A stretch of 35,174 nucleotides of DNA from Richelia sp. SL_2_1 (GTDB lineage: Bacteria; Cyanobacteriota; Cyanobacteriia; Cyanobacteriales; Nostocaceae). Location of the stretch: assembly GCA_012033205.1 (NCBI GenBank), contig JAAUSO010000063.1, positions 1 through 35,174 on the forward strand. Reading direction: 5' to 3'. Of the stretch, positions 2,305-30,885 are shown piece by piece. The position numbers were made by a program, and so were the translations under genes. The number at the start of each line of letters is the position of its first letter. The first letter of the stretch is position 1. Below the pieces are notes generated by a model, which was given only the letters and a program-made list of their open reading frames with translations, made no database searches and was not told the DNA's origin.

Positions 2305-2892
2305 ATGCCCAATTTGTATAGTAGAGAAAACAACTTACCAGCCAGCAGTCAAAAGCATGAGATTTATTCGCAGATTTTTCCGATTTCTGTGCAGAAAACG
2401 CCCCGCTACACATCCTGTGTTATGTTGTTCTTAAGCACTTAATTTAGAGATATTTATTTTAATAGAGATTGATTGAATCAACTCTACCGTGCTAAGAGAT
2501 AATAATGAACTCGTGCTTATCTTTTCTTAAAGTATCTACAATTACCTCTATTGCATAAATATTATTTTAGTTATTTTAAAATATTTTAAATATTTCAAAT
2601 ATTTCAAATATCTTTGAATTTTGCATACAGAAGTATTTAAGTACTCAATTTAGAGATGATTCCTGAATAATAAAACCTCAATTAAGATTATATATTTTGA
2701 ATTTTGGCAATTGTTACCATAATCAATTTTTATACTCCAATGATCAAAACCATTTACTTAAAGTTAAGTTACCTCAAACAAACAAATAATACTAGTGTCT
2801 GAACTACAGTGACGATTAATTGGGTAATGGGTAATGGGTAATGGGTTTAATTTTTATTTTGTTCCCTCTTCCCTATTCCCTCTTCCCTCTCA
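2305..2892. other. Intergenic region, AT-rich
   Basis: Nearly 600 bases between two minus-strand genes, strongly AT-rich with short ATATTT/AAATATTTCAAAT repeats near 2570-2615. It should hold the promoter of the binding-protein gene at its left end. I see no convincing gene. The right end is the tandem repeat described separately. Confidence 0.6.
2821..2890. repeat. Heptamer tandem repeats (STRR type)
   Basis: Three units of GGGTAAT, then TTCCCTC/TTCCCTA units, ending two bases before the stop codon of the kinase gene that follows on the minus strand. This is the short tandemly repeated repetitive sequence class known from filamentous cyanobacteria. Confidence 0.8.
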
Positions 2893-5817
2893 TTAACTTT
2901 TAACTTTCAACTTAACAATAAAACTTGCACCCTTACCAGGTTCACTGTTGGCTGTAATAGTTCCTTGATGTCGCTCAACTATTTTGCGACAGATAGCTAA
3001 ACCGATACCCGTACCTTGGTATTCTGTGCGTCCGTGGAGTCGTTGAAAGACGTTAAATATCTTGCCTAAGTATTTTTCGTCAAAACCAATACCGTTATCT
3101 TCTACGACGATTTCACAGTAATCAGAGCTAAGCTGTTGATTTGTAAAGATTCTGCTATAAATTTTTACTAATGGTGGCTCTGTTTTTAAGTGGAATTTCA
3201 GAGCATTTCCGATTAAGTTTTGTAGCAATTGACGCATCTGGAGTGGATCGGCTTCGATGGTAGGTAGTTCACCGATTTCGATCCGCGCTTTAGTTTGCGC
3301 GATAACTATTTCTAAGTCGGATAATACTTCATGAGTTACCTGTGCCAGATTTACCTGTACAAAAGGTTGTGCTTTGGTGGTTAGTCGCGAAAGGGTGAGT
3401 AAATCTTCAATCAAAGCCTGCATTCTTTGGGCTGCATTTTCCATTCGTTGCAGATAGTCGTATCCCTTATCTGTTAAGGCATTTTCGCAGGTGGCTTTGA
3501 GGCGATCGCCAAATGCGATAATTTTACGCAATGGTTCTTGTAAGTCGTGGGATGCAATAAAAGCAAATTGTTGTAATTCTTCGTTGGAGCGAGTCAATTC
3601 TTCTCGTTGACGGGTTTCTTGTTCTAACATTTTAGCTTGGGAAGCAGCTATACCCATTTGGTCGGCTAATTGTTTTAATAGTTCGCTTTCCCATTCATTC
3701 CATTCACGAGGACTACCACATTGATGAGCAATTAGCAATCCCCAAAGTTGGTTTTGCCTGATAATCGGAACTACCAAGTTAGCTTTTACACTAAATCTTT
3801 TGAGTAATTCTACATGACAAGGTTGGATATCGGCTTGCTCGATATCAGTAATGGCGCTAATCCTTCCTTGGCGGTATTTTTCGATATATTCTTTGCCAAA
3901 ACAAGGATCATTAATCTTCTGTCCATAAACTACGGGTAAACCCGGAACTACTGCTTCTTTAACGACTACTATGGAACCATCACTAAATATTCGCAGAATT
4001 AATACACGATCGGCATGAAGTAATTTCTGTACTTCCGTAACGCTGGTTTGGAGAATTTGATCGATTTGTAGGGAAGTGCGAATCTTGAGAGTGACATCAG
4101 CGAATAATTGCGATCGCAAGTTTTGCCGTATCAGTTCTTCTTGTACGCGCTTACGTTCAGTAACATCCGTATGAGAACCCGCCATCCGTACTACATTGCC
4201 ATCTGCGTCCCATAATGCTTTACCCCGATCTAAAATCCATTTATAAGTTCCATCTTTACAGCGAACGCGATGCTCAGTAATATAAAAGGGTATTTTATTG
4301 TCAAAATGGTTTTGAATCGTTTGCATGACTCGATCAATATCTTCAGGATGCACCCGACTTGACCATTCATCTAAATTATTTTTGATCTCTTGATCGGCAT
4401 AACCGAGCATTTCTTTCCAGCGAGTCGAGAAAAAAACTTGATCAGTTTTGACATTCCAATCCCAAATGCCATCATTAGTACCTTTGACTGCTAATTGCCA
4501 ACGCTGTTCGCTTTCTCTGAGGGCATTTTCCATCCGTTGACGTTCGATGGCTGTAGCTAAAACATTCGCGATTGCTTGTAAAAAAAATGTATCGTCTGTG
4601 CTAAATGTACGCTGTTTTGTGGTATGCGCTGCCAAAATCCCAAAAGGGCTTTCTTTACCGTGAATAATTACCGATAATCCGCTAACTACATTGTGTTCTA
4701 ACAATAATTGTGGTCCTTGAAAGCGGGTTTCATTGATTAAATCTTCCACAATTACAGCTTCTGGCGAATTAATAGTATAACCAGCTTGAGAATTTTCGGC
4801 AGCATTTATGATCTCTGTTCCCACAACTCCAGAATGCCAACCCACACCAAAGCGCAACAGTAACTCATTACCCCCTGGCAATAATTCCAAGATTTTGGAA
4901 TATTCTACATCAAGACATTGGGCAATGCACTTAACAGCTTGCTGCATCAACGTATCTAAATCCATTCGGGCTAGTGCTGCTTGAGAAAGTTCAGCAACCA
5001 ATGCTTGTTGACTAGCATGAACTTCCAAAGCTTCCTGTGCTGTTTTACTAGCAGTAATATCCATATCAATTCCCGACATTCGCACAGCTTTTCCAGAGGA
5101 ATTACGAAAAATTAAACCTTGAGAACCCAACCAGCGAATAGTACCGTCGGGTAAAACTATACGATATTCAATATTGTATTCTCCTCCTTCTTCAATCGCA
5201 CTGTGCAGCGCTCGATCGAGTAAATCTCTGTCTTGAGGATGAACAAAACTCAGAAAATTTTCGTAGGTTTGATTTACATTTAAACTTGCTTGCTCAAATA
5301 ATGTTCTAATAATATCCGACCAAATTATCTTATTAGTAACAATATCCCAATCCCAAACGCCCATATGAGCAGCCGACAATGCAATTCTTAATTGTGCTTC
5401 GTGCCACCTTGCTTGTTCCGTTTGCTGCCGCAATTTTTTCATTGTGTGATGAGCTTCTAATAAACGATGCACCCGTTGACGTAATACCAACCACTGAATC
5501 GGTTTAGTAATATAATCGGTAGCACCAGCATTAAAAGCTTTTTCTACGGAACTTTCTTCATAAAGAGCAGTAATAATTAATATCGGGATATCTTCCCCCC
5601 CAGGAAGTTGACGCAAACGCTCACAACATTTAAAACCATCCATCTGTGGCATTAAAGCATCGAGCAAAACCATATCTGGTTGTAATTGAGTATAGACTGT
5701 CAAAGCCTCTTCCCCATTAATTGCTTCAGCTACCGAATATCCCGCCGATTTCAGCAATTCCCGCAACTGCATCCGCGTTAAACGATCATCATCTACAACT
5801 AGGATTAGATTTGTCAT
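2893..5817 (-). CDS. Histidine kinase REC-PAS-GAF-PAS-GAF(cyanobacteriochrome-like)-HisKA-HATPase
   Basis: A 974-residue cytosolic sensor kinase with no membrane segment. Domains: receiver 1-122 (acidic pocket D9-D11, phosphoacceptor D53, K105); PAS_3-type 145-262; GAF 272-428; PAS_3-type 435-560; GAF 570-725; HisKA with phospho-His H757 in SHDLQEPL; HATPase with N871, DNGIGF (907-912) and GTGIGL (935-940). The second GAF has the features of a cyanobacteriochrome: DPCF at 637-640 and Cys-His at 667-668, followed by LVVPI and LWGLLIAHQC. The two cysteines are 28 residues apart, the spacing remembered for DXCF photoreceptors such as TePixJ. The first GAF lacks both. The kinase core is complete, so activity is expected. 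An N-terminal receiver suggests that it is also an acceptor from another kinase, perhaps the hybrid kinase just upstream. Bilin binding is an inference from motif and spacing. Confidence 0.93.
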   Translation of the reverse strand: MTNLILVVDDDRLTRMQLRELLKSAGYSVAEAINGEEALTVYTQLQPDMVLLDALMPQMDGFKCCERLRQLPGGEDIPILIITALYEESSVEKAFNAGATDYITKPIQWLVLRQRVHRLLEAHHTMKKLRQQTEQARWHEAQLRIALSAAHMGVWDWDIVTNKIIWSDIIRTLFEQASLNVNQTYENFLSFVHPQDRDLLDRALHSAIEEGGEYNIEYRIVLPDGTIRWLGSQGLIFRNSSGKAVRMSGIDMDITASKTAQEALEVHASQQALVAELSQAALARMDLDTLMQQAVKCIAQCLDVEYSKILELLPGGNELLLRFGVGWHSGVVGTEIINAAENSQAGYTINSPEAVIVEDLINETRFQGPQLLLEHNVVSGLSVIIHGKESPFGILAAHTTKQRTFSTDDTFFLQAIANVLATAIERQRMENALRESEQRWQLAVKGTNDGIWDWNVKTDQVFFSTRWKEMLGYADQEIKNNLDEWSSRVHPEDIDRVMQTIQNHFDNKIPFYITEHRVRCKDGTYKWILDRGKALWDADGNVVRMAGSHTDVTERKRVQEELIRQNLRSQLFADVTLKIRTSLQIDQILQTSVTEVQKLLHADRVLILRIFSDGSIVVVKEAVVPGLPVVYGQKINDPCFGKEYIEKYRQGRISAITDIEQADIQPCHVELLKRFSVKANLVVPIIRQNQLWGLLIAHQCGSPREWNEWESELLKQLADQMGIAASQAKMLEQETRQREELTRSNEELQQFAFIASHDLQEPLRKIIAFGDRLKATCENALTDKGYDYLQRMENAAQRMQALIEDLLTLSRLTTKAQPFVQVNLAQVTHEVLSDLEIVIAQTKARIEIGELPTIEADPLQMRQLLQNLIGNALKFHLKTEPPLVKIYSRIFTNQQLSSDYCEIVVEDNGIGFDEKYLGKIFNVFQRLHGRTEYQGTGIGLAICRKIVERHQGTITANSEPGKGASFIVKLKVKS

Positions 5818-5920: not shown

Positions 5921-7027
5921 TTATTTTAAAACCGAATGCAAAGTCGTTAATAACTCCCGTGCAGTATATGGTTTGGGTAAAAAAGCTGTATATTTAGAAG
6001 CTTTTTCATTCATATTTTGTTCATTGGTTGGTAGCCCGCTGACAGCAATCATGCGTAAACTAGGATTCATTCGATGTAATGTCTTGATGGTAGTTGTACC
6101 ATCCATATTAGGCATCATCATATCAACTATTGCTGCACGAATTTGATTTTTATGCTGAGCATAAAGTGCCACTGCTTCAATTCCATCATTAGCAGTCATT
6201 GCTTGATAATTGTGCTGTTCTAAAGAAGTTGAAGTAATATCTCTAATTGACGGTTCGTCATCAACAACTAAAATTAATTCTCCATTTCCTACAGGTGTTG
6301 TCAAACATTCAGTTATTTGGATTGCATTGCTTTGGGCTATTGGTAAGTAAGCTTCAAATTTCGTTCCTTTACCTACAGCACTAGATACATTAATAAATCC
6401 GTTATGACCTTTAATAATCCCGATGACGGTGGATAAACCTAATCCTGTACCTTTACCAAATTCTTTGGTTGTGAAAAAAGGCTCAAAAATTCTATCCAAG
6501 AATTCTGGAGTAATACCAATGCCCGTATCGGCAACGCTAATAACTACATAAGAACCAACTTTAGCATCAAGGTGCATTTTGGCATAGTTATCATCAATTA
6601 TAATATTTTCGGCACAAATAGTTAACTTGCCGCCGTCTGGCATTGCATCACGAGCATTTAGACACAAATTCATTAATACTTGATGTAATTGGGTATTATC
6701 GCCGGATATATGCCATAAATCTTCTTGAATAGACTGATTAAATACAATCGATTTGGGAAAAGTTTGTTCGACAATCTGCTTCATTTCCCGAATTAATTCT
6801 TTCACCTGAATGATAGTGCGATCGCCCTCGATTCCTCTGGCAAATGACAACACTTGTTTTACTAGATTAGCACCGCGTTTGGCGTTGTTTTCGACGATTT
6901 CCAACATGGAAATTTCTTTGTCGTTACGACTTTTATTTCTGAGCAACTGTACTGACATTAAAATCGGTGAAAGTACGTTGTTCAAATCGTGAGCAATCCC
7001 ACTGGCTAAAGTACCAATACTTTCCAT
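5921..7027 (-). CDS. Hybrid kinase C-terminal half: HisKA-HATPase-REC (in -1 frame to the sensor half)
   Basis: The open frame holds HisKA with H13 in GIAHDLNN, HATPase with N124, VADTGIGI (D167) and GKGTGLGL, and a receiver domain from about 250 (D256, D257, phosphoacceptor D302, K352). The first ATG lies inside the first helix of the dimerisation domain. The same frame continues upstream of it with KELEKQFLRAQR, the usual start of that helix, so this half is not a natural stand-alone protein. It is the continuation of the sensor ORF 7054-8727, with a -1 frame change at the A7 tract. A Shine-Dalgarno sequence before ATG 7027 is lacking. The joined product would be about 930 residues: GAF-PAS-PAS-PAS-HisKA-HATPase-REC. 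Confidence 0.9.
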   Translation of the reverse strand: MESIGTLASGIAHDLNNVLSPILMSVQLLRNKSRNDKEISMLEIVENNAKRGANLVKQVLSFARGIEGDRTIIQVKELIREMKQIVEQTFPKSIVFNQSIQEDLWHISGDNTQLHQVLMNLCLNARDAMPDGGKLTICAENIIIDDNYAKMHLDAKVGSYVVISVADTGIGITPEFLDRIFEPFFTTKEFGKGTGLGLSTVIGIIKGHNGFINVSSAVGKGTKFEAYLPIAQSNAIQITECLTTPVGNGELILVVDDEPSIRDITSTSLEQHNYQAMTANDGIEAVALYAQHKNQIRAAIVDMMMPNMDGTTTIKTLHRMNPSLRMIAVSGLPTNEQNMNEKASKYTAFLPKPYTARELLTTLHSVLK

Positions 7028-24390: not shown

Positions 24391-25239
24391 TTAAGTTACA
24401 TTTGTATTAAAGATTTCTGGAGATATTATTCCTTCCGCTACTTTGGTAACTGAACCTGTCATTTGAATTGAATAATTTTCACCAATTTCGATTAAAATCA
24501 TACCTCCCGGCATATGTACGGTAACTGATGAATCGCATAAATTAAGACGACGTGCAACCGCTGCTGCTGCACTGCTACTACTTCCCGACGCTAAAGTATA
24601 ACCTGCACCTCTTTCCCAAATTTCTAATTGAATGTTTTCTCTATCAAGTACTTTCATAAATTGTACGTTAATACGATTTGGGAAAAACTTATGGGTTTCT
24701 ATTAAATAACCATATTGCTTTGCTAACTCTGGTGTAATTTCAGTTAAAGGGATTACACAATGAGGATTTCCGATAGTCGCAGCGCAAAATTTGAAGGTTT
24801 TATTTTCAACTGTAATATTTTCAGAAATTACTTCTCTACGTTCTCCCGTTACGGGTATTTCATCGCTCCAAAAGCTGACTTTTCCCATTTCTACACTAAC
24901 TGTTTTACCATTATCTAAAACTGCTGAATTAACTAATCCTCCTAATGTCTCAATACTAAACGCTTCTTCTTTTACTAATTCCATATCCCACAAGTAACGG
25001 GAGAAAATTCTCAATCCATTTCCACTTTTCTCTGCTTCGCTACCGTCAGGATTGAAAATTCGCAATAAAAATTGTCCCTTATCGGATTTTAAAGGTCCGA
25101 AAAGTATACCGTCAGAGCCAATACCAAAATTTCGATGACAAATTTTTTTGATTTGTTCGGAAGTTAAAGTTGTATGAACATCTTCTGAATTAATAACTAT
25201 ATAATCGTTGCCTATGGCGTGATATTTAAAATATTTCAT
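24391..25239 (-). CDS. DapF family protein with both catalytic cysteines replaced by serine
   Basis: 282 residues with the full diaminopimelate epimerase fold: KYHAIGNDYIVIN at the start, GSDGILFG, FNPDGSEAEKSGNGLRIFSRY, ATIGNPHCVI, WERGAGYTLASGSSSSAAAAVAR and a closing PGGMILIEI strand. In true DapF the two thiols that abstract and donate the proton lie in the motifs SEAxxCGNG and TxACGTG. Here both are serine: S72 (codon AGT) and S218 (TCG), at positions corresponding to C73 and C217 of E. coli. Substrate-binding Asn and Glu-Arg residues are kept. A normal two-thiol epimerase reaction is therefore unlikely; possibilities are an altered lyase or epimerase, a binding protein, or a slow enzyme. 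It follows an LD-carboxypeptidase gene by 26 bases on the same strand, which ties it to peptidoglycan peptides. Confidence 0.9.
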   Translation of the reverse strand: MKYFKYHAIGNDYIVINSEDVHTTLTSEQIKKICHRNFGIGSDGILFGPLKSDKGQFLLRIFNPDGSEAEKSGNGLRIFSRYLWDMELVKEEAFSIETLGGLVNSAVLDNGKTVSVEMGKVSFWSDEIPVTGERREVISENITVENKTFKFCAATIGNPHCVIPLTEITPELAKQYGYLIETHKFFPNRINVQFMKVLDRENIQLEIWERGAGYTLASGSSSSAAAAVARRLNLCDSSVTVHMPGGMILIEIGENYSIQMTGSVTKVAEGIISPEIFNTNVT

Positions 25240-25265: not shown

Positions 25266-26282
25266 TTACTTAACAGCAGTTTCTAACATTTTTATTATCC
25301 CAGTATTTGCATCAATTTCTACTTGTATACCGATGGGAAGTGTAAATTTATCTTTAATATGACCAATCATTGAACCATACCATGCAGGAATGTTTAAAGG
25401 TCGAATATGTTCTTGTAATACTTGTATTAAAGTTAATGAAGGTTCATCTCCAGTGCTACATCTGGTACATTGTCCAAATACAAAACCGGCTAATTGATTG
25501 AGGATTCTGGCGTTTTTTAATTGAACTAACATTCTATCTACGCGGTAAACATCTTCGCCAATATCTTCTACAAATAAAATATTACCTTTCCATGTAGGTA
25601 AATAAGATGAACCCAACATTGAATTTATTACTGATAAATTACCGCCAATAAATTTACCTTTGGCTTTACCTGGTGTAATTATTTGGCGACGAAGTTGAGT
25701 AATTAAAGTATTATTCATTGTGACTAGTTCGCCATCGAATAAAATACTTTTTACATAATTAAAAGTAAAATTATTCCAAGTAGAAGTAGCTACTGCTCCA
25801 TGAAAAGTGACAAGTCCAGTCTGAGCAGTGATTGCTAATAATAAAGATGTAATATCGCTATATCCCATAATAATTTTAGGATTGGCGCGAATCAAATTAT
25901 AGTTAAGTAATGGTAAAATCCGATTGCCACCCCATCCACCACGCATAGCAATTATGGCTTTCACTGATTTATCAGCAAACATAGCATTAACATCACCAGC
26001 GCGATCGCGATCAATTCCTGCTAAGTAACCATAATTGTCTAAAATATGACTACCGAGCTTAATTTTTAAACCTAGTGCGCTAAATGTTTGTCTTGCTTGT
26101 TCAACGTCTTCGGAATCAATTATACCAGCAGGACTAATTAATCCTATTGTATCGCCTAATCTGAGACGCGGTGGCTTGATAATAGTATTGGCAGTCTGAG
26201 CTTGAACGGTAAATGATGGTATTTGGCTGGAAATAGCGGCTATTCCCATTGTTGTAATGAATTTTCGGCGATTGATATTCAT
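25266..26282 (-). CDS. Tat-exported LD-carboxypeptidase (peptidase S66)
   Basis: 338 residues. N-terminus MNINRRKFITTMGIAAIS is a twin-arginine signal with RRKF, cleaved near VQA, so the enzyme should be folded before export to the periplasm. The S66 core is complete: SPAG near 50-53, MRGGWGGNRILP, the nucleophile S142 in MGYSDIT, E239 in FVEDIGEDVYRVDR, and H308 in MIGHIKDKFTLPIG. The family removes the terminal D-amino acid from meso-diaminopimelate in muropeptides, or cleaves microcin C-like substrates (MccF). It is the first gene of a two-gene unit with the DapF-like protein. Most LD-carboxypeptidases of Gram-negatives are cytoplasmic, so export is notable. Confidence 0.92.
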   Translation of the reverse strand: MNINRRKFITTMGIAAISSQIPSFTVQAQTANTIIKPPRLRLGDTIGLISPAGIIDSEDVEQARQTFSALGLKIKLGSHILDNYGYLAGIDRDRAGDVNAMFADKSVKAIIAMRGGWGGNRILPLLNYNLIRANPKIIMGYSDITSLLLAITAQTGLVTFHGAVATSTWNNFTFNYVKSILFDGELVTMNNTLITQLRRQIITPGKAKGKFIGGNLSVINSMLGSSYLPTWKGNILFVEDIGEDVYRVDRMLVQLKNARILNQLAGFVFGQCTRCSTGDEPSLTLIQVLQEHIRPLNIPAWYGSMIGHIKDKFTLPIGIQVEIDANTGIIKMLETAVK

Positions 26283-26782
26283 GATGGGAATATACTATCA
26301 TTAACCCCCAAATTTCAAGCTTTACTTTAAATATGCACAATGAATTTGCAGACTCTACTACCCGTTTAAATTTTAAAATCTAAAATCTAAAATTCGATGA
26401 TAATGATATGGGGAGATATTTAGAGGAAGAATTTAAATAATCGCGATCGCAATCAAAAAAAGCACAAATGTTCGGGTTAGGAGTCATTTTTCCCAGTTGA
26501 TAATTTGGAAAACCCCATGGTAAAATTATTTACCCATATCCAATGCAAAAACGTTGAAGGCACAAGGTAAAAGTAGAAATTCTTCCCATTACTTTTACCT
26601 TTTGCCTTTTACTTTATAAAAGGTCAAAGGTTAGAGGTTAAAGGTCAAAGGTCAAAAGTCAAAGGTTCAAATACATAACCACTGTCAACTGTCAACTGTT
26701 TCCATCGGGGTACTTAAACCGCTACAGTACAAATGGAAAATTTGAAGAAATTTAATTAAATTTAAAATTATCAGGGATGATT
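26283..26782. other. Divergent intergenic region
   Basis: Must carry promoters for the carboxypeptidase operon (minus) and the Lin0512 gene (plus). Contains a HIP1 site near 26443 and the repeats at 26559-26699. No gene seen. Confidence 0.55.
26559..26699. repeat. Inverted repeat followed by heptamer tandem repeats
   Basis: Arms GGCACAAGGTAAAAGTA (26559-26575) and TACTTTTACCTTTTGCC (26590-26606) pair with one mismatch. GGTCAAA/GGTTAAA units then run to about 26669, and ACTGTCA units close the block. Confidence 0.7.
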
Positions 26783-27196: not shown

Positions 27197-27424
27197 ATGA
27201 TCACCCTTGACGAAGTATTGAAAACAGCTTTACAGCTACCCTACGAGCAACAAGAAATGCTGATTAAGATTTTGCAAAATCGTTACCATCAAAACCGTCG
27301 AGAAGAAATTGCTGCGGACGCTCAAAAAAGTTTGGCTGATTTCCATGCAGGTAATTTTCAACCTCAACTAGCTGAGAATGTAATCGCACAATTGCGAGAA
27401 TCTTTGGATGATACGGAAGCATGA
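27197..27424 (+). CDS. Putative antitoxin of a type II toxin-antitoxin pair
   Basis: 75 residues, helical and charged. The N-terminus MITLDEVLKTALQLPYEQQEMLIKIL resembles the prevent-host-death-like or addiction-module antitoxins common in cyanobacteria, with LPxEQQ at the end of the first helix. A Gln/Glu-rich C-terminus would cover the toxin. Its stop codon overlaps the toxin start in ATGA, as expected for coupled translation. The DNA-binding part is not clear. Confidence 0.75.
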   Translation: MITLDEVLKTALQLPYEQQEMLIKILQNRYHQNRREEIAADAQKSLADFHAGNFQPQLAENVIAQLRESLDDTEA

Positions 27425-27705
27425 TAAGGCTGGTTCTAACTCCTAAGTTTAAAAGAGCATTCGGTAAATTTGTCAAGCGTAACGCCAACCTTCAAGAACG
27501 TATTGAAAACACTTTGTTATTGATGGAAGCAGACATATTTGCTGCAAACCTGGGTACACATAAATTGAGTGGTAAACTTGATGGTCTTCAATCCTGCTCC
27601 TGTGGATACGACTGTCGTATTGTTTTCTCAATGGAGCAGGATGAGGACACAAATACTGAAGTTATTGTGTTACTAGATATTGGGACTCATGATGAGGTTT
27701 ATTAA
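27421..27705 (+). CDS. RelE/ParE-family toxin (YafQ/RelE-like)
   Basis: 94 residues with the RelE-type pattern: LVLTPKFKRAFGKFVKRN at the start, a long helix, LGTHKLSGKLDGLQSCSCGYDCRIVF and the closing IVLLDIGTHDEVY. Family members cut mRNA on the ribosome or inhibit gyrase (ParE). The H-D-x-V-Y ending favours the YafQ/RelE mRNA-cutting branch. It overlaps the antitoxin gene by four bases. It looks intact, so the antitoxin is probably active as well. Confidence 0.85.
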   Translation: MIRLVLTPKFKRAFGKFVKRNANLQERIENTLLLMEADIFAANLGTHKLSGKLDGLQSCSCGYDCRIVFSMEQDEDTNTEVIVLLDIGTHDEVY

Positions 27706-27778: not shown

Positions 27779-29326
27779 TCAAGAAAACTTATGCAAAAAT
27801 CCCAAAAGCTTCTTGGTTCCATCTGTCAATTTAGTCCGTTTATATGCATCCGCAGCTTTTTTAATTCCTTCTGCTTGAGTCGGATAAGGATGAATTACAC
27901 TGCTTAATTTATTCATGCCAATTCCATTAACAATTGCGGTTGTGACTTCGGAAATCGTTTCACCAGCATGGGGAGATACTATTGTTGCACCAAGGATTTT
28001 ATCGGTACCTTCTTTGAGGTGAACTTTAACAAAACCTGCGGTTTCTCCGTCGGTAATGGCTCTATCGACATCTTCGTAGTCTATTTTAATAGTATTTACG
28101 GACAAACCTTTTTCTTGTGCTTCGCTTTCGTACATCCCTACATGAGCAATTTCTGGGTCGGTAAATGTTACCCAAGGTACAACTAAATCGCTGAGTTTTT
28201 TACGTCCCAAACCAAAGGGAGTAAATAAAGCATTTTGAATGACAATCCGCGCTGTTGCATCTGCCATATGGGTGAATTTTTGACTTAAACAGATGTCACC
28301 TGCGGCAAAAATTTTCGGATTTGTAGTTTGTAAATGGTCATTTACTTTTACACCTTTACTGTCGTATTCCACACCAACAGTTTCTAAATTCAAACCTTCC
28401 ACATTCGGGGTTCTTCCCGCACCTACTAAAATTTCATCTACGATAATAAAATCTTGTTTACCGTTGCTAGTATAGTGAATTTTTTTGCCCTCAGATGTAC
28501 TTTCCACACGCTGTATTTGGGAACTTAAAACTAAATCGATTTGTTCATGTTGAAATACTTTTTGAACGATGGATGCAGCGTCACTATCTTCTTTATTTAA
28601 AATATGCGAACCGCGATGTAAAATTGTGACTTCGCTACCAAAACGGTTGAAAGCTTGAGCTAATTCACAACCGATGGGGCCACCACCAATTATTGCTAAA
28701 CGTCGTGGTAATTGAGTCAGGGAAAATACGGTTTCATTAGTTAAATATCCGGCTTCTTTCATCCCAGGAATATCGGGATGTGTGGCTCTCGCTCCGGTAG
28801 CAATTACAGCTTTTTTAAACCTAAGAGTTTTACCCGCAACTTCAATAGTATTACTGCTGGTAAAACTTGCCGCACCCAAAAATATATCCATTCCAAATTC
28901 ATTTGTAAAACGATCAACCGCATCAACATGGCTGATTTGCGCTCTTAATCGTCGCATCCGTTCCATAACTGCGGGAAAATCCACTTCTACTTCTTGGGGA
29001 ACATGAATTCCGTACTCTTTAGCATTCCAAATTTCACCCACCACACGAGCAGAACGAATCAAGCATTTAGAAGGTACACAACCCACATTAGTACAATCTC
29101 CTCCCATGAGATGCTTTTCAATCAATGCAACTTTTAAACCCACACCCAAACCAGCAGCACCAGCAGAAGTTACTAAACCAGCAGCACCAGCGCCAATCGC
29201 AATCAAATCATAACAATCGGCTGGTTCAGGATTTTTCCAATCATTAGGATGTAAGTTCGCAATCAATTTTTGATTGTACTCATCCATGGGGGGAACAATT
29301 ACTCTTTCAAAGGCTGAATTTGACAT
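27779..29326 (-). CDS. MerA-like FAD/NAD(P) disulfide oxidoreductase
   Basis: 515 residues of the pyridine nucleotide-disulfide oxidoreductase family. FAD loop IGAGAAGLVTS, redox-active disulfide C78/C83 in GGDCTNVGCVPSK, NAD(P) loop IIGGGPIGCELAQ, second FAD segment IFAAGDI, and the dimer-interface HPYPTQAEG with the catalytic His-Glu pattern. An N-terminal metal-binding domain and the C-terminal vicinal cysteines of true mercuric reductase are both absent, so mercury reduction is unlikely; an unknown disulfide or quinone substrate is more plausible. The extended N-terminus (about 38 residues) is usual for cyanobacterial versions. The genes upstream on the same strand encode VTT membrane proteins, an arrangement often seen with this subfamily. 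Confidence 0.9.
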   Translation of the reverse strand: MSNSAFERVIVPPMDEYNQKLIANLHPNDWKNPEPADCYDLIAIGAGAAGLVTSAGAAGLGVGLKVALIEKHLMGGDCTNVGCVPSKCLIRSARVVGEIWNAKEYGIHVPQEVEVDFPAVMERMRRLRAQISHVDAVDRFTNEFGMDIFLGAASFTSSNTIEVAGKTLRFKKAVIATGARATHPDIPGMKEAGYLTNETVFSLTQLPRRLAIIGGGPIGCELAQAFNRFGSEVTILHRGSHILNKEDSDAASIVQKVFQHEQIDLVLSSQIQRVESTSEGKKIHYTSNGKQDFIIVDEILVGAGRTPNVEGLNLETVGVEYDSKGVKVNDHLQTTNPKIFAAGDICLSQKFTHMADATARIVIQNALFTPFGLGRKKLSDLVVPWVTFTDPEIAHVGMYESEAQEKGLSVNTIKIDYEDVDRAITDGETAGFVKVHLKEGTDKILGATIVSPHAGETISEVTTAIVNGIGMNKLSSVIHPYPTQAEGIKKAADAYKRTKLTDGTKKLLGFLHKFS

Positions 29327-29437: not shown

Positions 29438-30175
29438 TTACTGTTCATCGATATTTGTTGATTCATTTAAAGCTTTTCTCGCAACTTTGGTTACGTAAAG
29501 AGTTACAGCAACTGTAGCAATGAAACCAATAATCCGAATTGTCCAAACAACGGTAGGATTACTTGGTTGTTCTCCGGTTCCAATTGTGGCAATATTACCA
29601 GCTAAAGAACCCAAATATACATACATAATTGTTCCGGGAAGAATGCCGATAGTTCCTAATATATAATCTTTTAAAGAAACTCCGGTAACACCATAGGCAT
29701 AGTTTAATAAATTAAATGGAAACACCGGAGAAAGTCTAGTTAATAAAACAATTTTTAAACCTTCTCTACCTACGGCGTTATCAACTGCGGCAAACTTTTT
29801 GTTTCCAGAAATTTTCTTTGCAACCCAATTTCGAGCTAAATAACGTCCTACTAAAAAAGCTGCTATGGCTCCAATTGTGGCACCAATAAAAACGTATACG
29901 GAACCCAAAAAGACATCAAAAACTACCCCCGCACCTAAAGTTAAAATAGAACCTGGTAGAAAAGCAACAGTAGCGACAATGTAAAGGATAATGAAAGCAA
30001 TTCCACCTACAGCACCTTGATTATTAATCCATTCCAAAGCATTTTTGAGCCATTCTTGAGGATTAAAGCCTGATGTATTTGTACTTTCTTGAGCTAAAGC
30101 TGGATGTACATTTAACAGAATTATTAAGCTAAATGTAATCACAGTAAATAGACTAAATCTGTAAAGTTTATTCAT
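29438..30175 (-). CDS. TVP38/TMEM64 family (VTT domain) membrane protein, copy 1
   Basis: 245 residues. The N-terminus is a signal peptide or signal anchor ending near ALAQ. The VTT domain (SNARE-associated/DedA-related) spans about 60-215: YIVATVAFLPGSILTLGAGVVF, FLVGRYLARNWVAKKI, LLTRLSPVFPFNLLNYAYGVTGV and DYILGTIGILPGTIMYVYLGSL, with several helices and the re-entrant loops typical of the fold. Relatives act in lipid scrambling or undecaprenyl-phosphate/small-solute transport; the substrate here is unknown. A close paralogue lies directly upstream, so this is a tandem duplication. Confidence 0.88.
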   Translation of the reverse strand: MNKLYRFSLFTVITFSLIILLNVHPALAQESTNTSGFNPQEWLKNALEWINNQGAVGGIAFIILYIVATVAFLPGSILTLGAGVVFDVFLGSVYVFIGATIGAIAAFLVGRYLARNWVAKKISGNKKFAAVDNAVGREGLKIVLLTRLSPVFPFNLLNYAYGVTGVSLKDYILGTIGILPGTIMYVYLGSLAGNIATIGTGEQPSNPTVVWTIRIIGFIATVAVTLYVTKVARKALNESTNIDEQ

Positions 30176-30312: not shown

Positions 30313-30885
30313 TCAAATACTCGTACTTTCTTTTAAAGCTTTTTTAGCAACTTTAGCAATATAAATAGTTACAAAAATTGTCGCGATTAATCCAATTCCT
30401 TGTAATAACATCTGAGCAAATTGTGCTTCTGGACTTTTTGGAATTGATGAATTTGTTATTGCAATATTACCGATTAACGAACCCATGTAAACATACATTA
30501 TAGTTCCGGGAATCATACCAATGGAACCTAAAATATAATCTTTTAAAGATACCTGAGTAACTCCAAAAGCATAGTTTAATAAATTGAAGGGAAAAATTGG
30601 TGATAAACGAGTTAAAAATACAATTTTAAATCCATTTTTGGCAACTGCTTTATCTATAGCTTGAAATTTAGGATTTTTACCTATTTGTTGACATACCCAA
30701 TCACGAGATATATAACGTCCCACTAAAAAGGCAAATGTTGCACCGATAATTGCAGCAATCAATACATATAAAGAACCCCAATATAACCCAAACAAACAAC
30801 CTCCTTTTAACGTTAATAAAGAACCTGGAATAAATAATAATGTGGCAACATTGTAAATAATTATAAATGCGATCGACCCCACCAA
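30313..30885 (-). CDS. TVP38/TMEM64 (VTT) membrane protein, copy 2, main part (frame-shifted)
   Basis: 190 residues covering the whole VTT core and parallel to copy 1 throughout: YNVATLLFIPGSLLTLKGG, FLVGRYISRDWVCQQI, LTRLSPIFPFNLLNYAFGVTQV and GTIMYVYMGSL. The apparent TTG start lies inside the protein. The missing N-terminal helix is encoded at 30861-31019 in the +1 frame relative to this one, and one extra G in GGTTGGTGGGG near 30890 would join them (SLGWVGSIAF). The repaired protein would be about 235 residues, close to copy 1. Whether the gene is broken or the sequence is wrong cannot be told. Confidence 0.82.
   Translation of the reverse strand: MVGSIAFIIIYNVATLLFIPGSLLTLKGGCLFGLYWGSLYVLIAAIIGATFAFLVGRYISRDWVCQQIGKNPKFQAIDKAVAKNGFKIVFLTRLSPIFPFNLLNYAFGVTQVSLKDYILGSIGMIPGTIMYVYMGSLIGNIAITNSSIPKSPEAQFAQMLLQGIGLIATIFVTIYIAKVAKKALKESTSI

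Follow-up and report, generated by a model that had tools for sequence, protein, structure and literature searches.

The DapF (diaminopimelate epimerase) homologue encoded in a 35,174 nt contig of Richelia sp. SL_2_1 (the window, meaning the whole stretch of DNA that was analysed) has serine at both of the positions held by the catalytic cysteines of the known enzyme, and it belongs to a branch of DapF which, on the evidence of the sequences compared here, is old, widespread, a single clade and under selection. We consider it likely that the members of this Ser/Ser clade are genuine LL-diaminopimelate (LL-DAP) epimerases without catalytic thiols, present as an extra copy in most of the Nostocales that carry them, and the window protein is itself most likely a second DAP epimerase. 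That the clade, which extends over several phyla, epimerises LL-DAP to meso-DAP via a serine/serine pair and with no thiol, probably assisted by a lysine, is the mechanism that we favour, somewhat cautiously.

By the accepted view, both the chemistry of DapF and its covalent inhibitors rely on a thiol/thiolate pair. A Ser/Ser DapF puts this two-thiol rule to a direct test and, if the proposal is true, the rule that cofactor-independent epimerases need a thiolate base would break, and Ser/Ser DapFs would be insensitive to thiol reagents and to oxidation. No natural Ser/Ser DapF was described in the titles or abstracts of the matches listed from the open-licence PMC literature, preprints excluded.

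The Ser/Ser DapF homologue of the window

The gene is on the minus strand at positions 24391–25239 and is an intact open reading frame of 282 aa, recognised as a DapF homologue by Pfam, TIGR00652, AlphaFold2 and Foldseek. As had been claimed in an earlier note made from the DNA letters, the reading frame, the alignment and the codons all put serine at both catalytic positions: Ser72 (AGT, read 25026–25024), in the motif SEAEKSGNG, and Ser218 (TCG, read 24588–24586), in the motif TLASGSSSS, align with Cys72 and Cys218 of the Cys/Cys DapFs. Lys71 (AAA, 25027–25029, minus strand) is specific to the clade.

The only Pfam match of the protein is to PF01678 (DAP_epimerase; E value 6.8e-60), and it is thus not a PLP-type DapF2, which is an alanine-racemase homologue. 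The NCBIfam model for DapF, TIGR00652, gives 249.4 bits against a cut-off of 114.65, which means that this equivalog model accepts proteins that lack the catalytic cysteines. The AlphaFold2 model (pLDDT 92.8, pTM 0.86) has DapF 8qzy as its best Foldseek match, the top matches are solved DapFs, and the structures of the C73S and C217S mutants of Haemophilus influenzae DapF are among the best. Both fold and family model place the protein in the DapF family, and the fold is common to the Cys/Cys DapFs (EC 5.1.1.7) of Anabaena (9mro), H. influenzae (1gqz) and Escherichia coli (4ijz), with Foldseek TM values of 0.85–0.92. The window protein resembles these enzymes in passing the TIGR00652 cut-off, in the residues of the distal DAP site and, in its relatives, in the operon slot of the gene, but it shares 34–35 % identity with them and has serine for both catalytic cysteines. 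As it lacks both catalytic cysteines, it is classed here not as a two-thiol DapF but within a variant branch of this family of homologues.

Sequencing error, which the earlier note had already discounted as the source of the double replacement, and decay are ruled out by the finding of 69 distinct Ser/Ser sequences and by the dN/dS values of the window gene, which are 0.108, 0.105 and 0.121 (about 0.11) against its three closest relatives. The possibility, raised in the same note, that true cysteines at other positions could serve is ruled out by the pattern of variation of the four cysteines of the window protein, among which no relocated catalytic residue was found: C34 is common to 89 of the 108 Cys/Cys rows of the alignment, C152 and C235 are variable, and C161 is serine in one member. 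There is no Rfam match within the window, and no dap gene adjoins the Ser/Ser dapF there.

Extent and phylogeny of the Ser/Ser clade

A scan of genome contigs recovered 44 loci, which come from Nostocales and other cyanobacteria, Verrucomicrobia, Thermodesulfobacteriota, a deltaproteobacterium labelled Myxococcota, Bacillota, Calditrichota and unclassified bacteria, and every close homologue that covers both motifs has serine at both positions. With duplicates and rows of <230 aligned residues dropped, and 14 later-fetched loci not included, the alignment has 69 distinct Ser/Ser and 108 distinct Cys/Cys rows, together with two mixed ones: L218 is Cys/Ser, and L231, which belongs to a CarB fusion, is Ser/Cys. 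Trees were built on thinned sets. In a quick tree of 92 rows a single branch (SH-aLRT 100) separates 47 Ser/Ser from 45 Cys/Cys rows, and in a tree of 87 rows with the motif columns removed 51 Ser/Ser rows and one Cys/Ser hybrid form one clade (support 100/99). Convergence of the motifs is hence unlikely to be what shapes the tree, though a meeting of long branches was flagged there. Ser72 is encoded by AGY in 67/67 cases; for Ser218, 51 sequences use TCN and 16 use AGY.

A second dapF, for which the earlier note had suggested looking, is present elsewhere in the genome of the window (G000, contig C191), and its product is Cys/Cys, with the motifs MCGNG and LACGTGACA; in this genome DapL is also matched once and the LysA family twice, whereas Ddh gave no match. 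Close Ser/Ser homologues sharing 52–88 % identity, one of them a fragment, were found in 13 of 60 relatives. Twelve of these 13 carriers have a second copy of approximately 35 % identity, which is Cys/Cys in 12/12, and the thirteenth, a Paraprochloron genome (G051, 98 % complete), has the Ser/Ser type only. In an even sample of 146 cyanobacterial genomes (completeness floor 90), for which ten loci (L197–L206) were read and other matches were typed by score only, three genomes, G000, G176 and G222, proved to carry the Ser/Ser type, and it is the only DapF found in G222 (99 % complete). The main Nostocales group branches amid verrucomicrobial genes, the gene of G222 branches beside another verrucomicrobial gene, and those of G012 and Paraprochloron branch near the Bacillota. 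These scattered positions suggest several transfers, and the Ser/Ser DapF of the Nostocales looks to have been gained horizontally, mostly as an extra isozyme beside a Cys/Cys DapF. A role as a redox-proof spare for oxygenic phototrophs is weakened by the presence of the clade in Thermodesulfobacteriota and Clostridia.

Among 22 genomes with divergent or non-cyanobacterial members, the Ser/Ser gene is the only TIGR00652 match in 14. In the verrucomicrobial order that includes G071 (77 genomes, completeness floor 85), exactly one DapF gene is present in 74 genomes, of the Ser/Ser type in 18 and of the Cys/Cys type in 56 (in one of these the gene is broken over two frames), three have none, and two DapF genes were found in 0/77. 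The class of G070 (12 genomes) is similar, with four Ser/Ser, five Cys/Cys, three with neither and none with both. The Ser/Ser type is rare in the order of G076 (47 genomes), where the 25 loci read comprised three Ser/Ser (G076, G301 and G338), one Cys/Ser, one Ser/Cys and 20 Cys/Cys, and where G301 has the Ser/Ser type only. Both types do occur in one genome outside the cyanobacteria, for example in G069, G072, G076 and G338.

Some unusual forms were also recorded. The Cys72/Ser218 hybrid at L264:3705–4481 (G317), with MCGNG and TLASGTSS, occupies a long branch inside the Ser/Ser clade and has lysA (452 bits) approximately 1.3 kb upstream. L217, from G338, which also carries a Cys/Cys DapF, is a Ser/Ser member on a long branch with isoleucine for Lys71 (EISGNG) and GTGSC in the second motif. 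CarB (carbamoyl-phosphate synthase large chain) is fused to DapF in a single 1337-aa ORF with serine and cysteine, respectively, at the two catalytic positions (L263:1817–5827, G315), the start of a CarB-DapF fusion runs to the contig end at L266 (G075), and CarB-DapF-like ORFs of 1350 and 1355 aa are found in G305 and G327. In a Syntrophaceae locus (L039) carB (2596–5793) is directly upstream of a Ser/Ser dapF (5983–6825), and this is the gene pair that is fused in L263. Finally, L265:2692–4302 (minus strand, G317) encodes a fusion of a cysteine-synthase-like PLP domain (PF00291) with a DapF-like domain whose first motif is degenerate and whose second reads TVASGTS; this fusion is perhaps lanthionine-related.

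Genomic context and the DAP/lysine pathway

In the verrucomicrobial order of G071, both types of dapF head the same dapF-dapA-dapB cluster. Examination by tblastn found dapA adjoining dapF on the same strand at 10 of 27 Ser/Ser and 12 of 18 Cys/Cys loci (the Cys/Cys flanks covering 18 of 56 genomes), with dapB following in 9/27 and 10/18, respectively, and the identities of dapA (TIGR00674) and dapB (TIGR00036) were confirmed in several loci. At the remaining 17 of the 27 Ser/Ser loci dapA is not beside dapF, and in some of these the genes upstream resemble pyrD or aldo-keto-reductase genes. In the class of G070, dapL is directly downstream of the Ser/Ser dapF in 4/4 genomes and is followed in three of the four by a lysA-family gene (249–258 bits, below the curated cut-off of 298). 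At two loci of this class lysC-dapB-dapA (L268) or dapB-dapA (L269, by tblastn) are just upstream in the opposite direction, and dapB is upstream of the Ser/Ser dapF in Calditrichota (L045).

DapL produces LL-DAP and LysA consumes meso-DAP. In the 30 genomes in which only a Ser/Ser DapF was found, mostly draft MAGs of uncertain completeness, in which a missing gene may be an assembly gap, and not independent of one another where they come from one order, there is no Ddh, DapL is present in 23 (22 above the cut-off) and a LysA-family protein in 28 (26 above the cut-off); at the thresholds used, DapL was unmatched in seven and LysA in two. Three genomes were left out of this set: G073 has a fragment of a Cys-type DapF at a contig end, G075 has the beginning of a CarB-DapF fusion, and in G077 a single gene is divided between two frames. 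Among nine Cys/Cys-only verrucomicrobial genomes, Ddh was above the cut-off in none, and DapL was found in six and LysA in eight. With DapL as source and LysA as user of the two DAP isomers an epimerase is expected, and the sole DapF homologue in the Ser/Ser-only genomes is of the Ser/Ser type. The relatives of the window gene thus have a place in the DAP/lysine pathway. E. coli tolerates mutation of dapF, so that the enzyme is not necessarily essential.

Hence, Ser/Ser genes take the normal place of DapF where no Cys-type copy was found, and serine may do a job thought to need cysteine. The earlier note had read the double replacement as a selected change of function, and had named the absence of any other dapF in a genome as evidence against this. 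That absence is seen in many genomes other than that of the window. The Ser/Ser state is ancient and selected, as proposed, but a changed function for the clade in general is probably not the case, given that the Ser/Ser gene is the only DapF elsewhere, in the same operon slot and together with DapL and LysA-family genes but no Ddh. A changed function is possible in the genome of the window, because a Cys/Cys enzyme is present there.

Active site, proposed mechanism and alternatives

N63, N191, E209 and R210 are the same in every row of both types (69 Ser/Ser, 108 Cys/Cys), and N158 does not vary among the Ser/Ser proteins, so that all five are retained in 69/69 Ser/Ser rows. Together with the AlphaFold2 and Foldseek results, this bears out the earlier view that the fold and most substrate-binding residues are kept. 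We take N191 to have a role at the distal DAP site. The other four are taken to be the counterparts of Asn66, Asn164, Glu215 and Arg216, which hold the distal amino acid of DAP in the Anabaena DapF, as described in the excerpted text of PMC12039745.

The reacting end differs. Changes in the Ser/Ser clade are M71 to K, C72 to S, C78 to I, R206 to E, E/I214 to Y and C218 to S, with T220 to S (mostly), G221 to S (68/69) and V/A222 to S in addition, and K71, E206, Y214, S221 and S222 are among the specific residues that set the clade apart from the Cys/Cys DapFs. Position 71 is lysine in 68 of 69 Ser/Ser rows (isoleucine in L217) and methionine in 105 of 108 Cys/Cys rows. In the mechanism that we propose, LL-DAP would be converted to meso-DAP by proton transfer across the DapF cleft between Ser72 and Ser218, which would flank the alpha carbon, one on each face, and so replace the thiol/thiolate pair. 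The alpha proton has a pKa of about 29. Lys71, the serine run S220–S222 and the N-termini of two helices could make the serines competent, and Lys71 might either ease alkoxide formation or itself be the base on one face. A lysine (K73) is needed in PrpF methylaconitate isomerase, a DapF-like relative whose Cys variants retain some in vivo activity, and a lysine can therefore be a required residue in the superfamily, though at another position: according to PMC5690661, K73 matches the glutamate position of PhzF and not the residue preceding the DapF cysteine, and the reaction differs.

Experience with related enzymes, by analogy, counts against a serine mechanism. Cys-to-Ser mutants of PddB have <0.1 % activity (PMC8225329), those of HisR are greatly reduced in activity (PMC11602996), and a review argues why cysteine is preferred and includes a Cys-to-Thr change that made one relative a dehydratase (PMC8142540). 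These single mutants have no compensating changes, whereas the Ser/Ser clade has many. A Cys/Cys DapF is also present in most cyanobacterial carriers, and this counts against a DapF role there. Naturally altered catalytic cysteines are known from the Cys/Thr cofactor-independent racemases and trans-3-hydroxyproline dehydratase, the latter sharing its broad fold with the window protein in Foldseek, but in these one residue of the two is changed, to threonine, and they are described in extracts of PMC8142540 as one-way racemases or a dehydratase. The histidine racemases HisR and CntK, the 2,4-diaminobutyrate racemase PddB and O-ureidoserine racemase are cofactor-independent enzymes of the DapF fold with other substrates; unlike the Ser/Ser DapFs, HisR, CntK and PddB are described with catalytic cysteines in PMC11602996 and PMC8225329.

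It is unlikely that the clade instead uses a different substrate whose distal end resembles that of DAP (lanthionine, cystathionine or another diamino acid) or catalyses an elimination and not an epimerisation. The distal-site residues would bind any DAP-like end, the Anabaena DapF accepts lanthionine as well as DAP (PMC12039745, in the portion cited above), the Cys-to-Thr dehydratase provides a precedent, and the DAP step is already served by a Cys/Cys copy in 13/13 same-genome pairs (12 relatives and G000), but 30 genomes have no DapF match other than the Ser/Ser gene, which lies in dap/lys operons, and the threonine case alters just one of the two residues.

Quite unlikely, too, is a dead DAP-binding protein serving as sensor or regulator, with an unknown enzyme making meso-DAP where a Cys/Cys DapF is absent. 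The nearly inactive Cys-to-Ser mutants of relatives would fit this reading, and replacements for DapF can exist: DapF2, a predicted PLP-dependent DAP epimerase of the alanine-racemase family and not homologous to DapF, was likewise proposed from gene context, in Staphylococcus, Gemella and Peptostreptococcus (PMC9026213, from the excerpt available). Against it are the dapF operon slot, a dN/dS of approximately 0.1, the clade-specific changes around the active site and the finding of at most one alanine-racemase match in 30 of 31 Ser/Ser-only genomes (one in 23, none in seven and two in one), although the model could miss a distant PLP epimerase and the seven genomes with no match show how incomplete such drafts can be. 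Epimerisation by the Ser/Ser protein itself thus remains the reading that we prefer.

The earlier note had also linked the gene to its neighbour, an S66 LD-carboxypeptidase-family gene (25266–26282, minus strand; PF02016, PF17676) located 26 bases upstream of the dapF homologue. The protein begins MNINRRKFITTMGIAAIS, which we take to resemble a Tat signal. Among loci L001–L076, an S66 match beside the Ser/Ser gene is confined to four relatives of the same genus (L004=L048, L005=L049, L006=L051 and L050), a fifth (L041=L058) being cut at the contig end. Hence, while the clade that the note had envisaged exists, an S66 partnership is ruled out as its general context; the S66 gene is probably not part of the Ser/Ser DapF mechanism and the neighbourhood looks incidental. 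That the protein modifies or senses muropeptides together with the carboxypeptidase is very improbable. In favour, the two genes are on one strand and the pair is kept in the four same-genus relatives, but no S66 match adjoins the Ser/Ser gene in Nostoc, verrucomicrobial or other loci examined, and a Tat-like start on the S66 protein with none on the DapF homologue may mean different compartments.

Elsewhere in the window, the region at 26595–26700, upstream of the S66 gene, has short and imperfect repeats of tttgacc type that resemble heptamers and are presumably of the kind found between genes in heterocystous cyanobacteria, and a pair of small ORFs of 75 and 94 aa that overlap at 27197–27705 on the plus strand is toxin-antitoxin-like by eye. 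A pyridine-nucleotide disulphide oxidoreductase gene (27779–29326) lies beside a tandem pair of similar DedA/VTT-type membrane protein genes on the minus strand, at 29438–30175 (PF09335) and 30313–30885 (recognised by eye).
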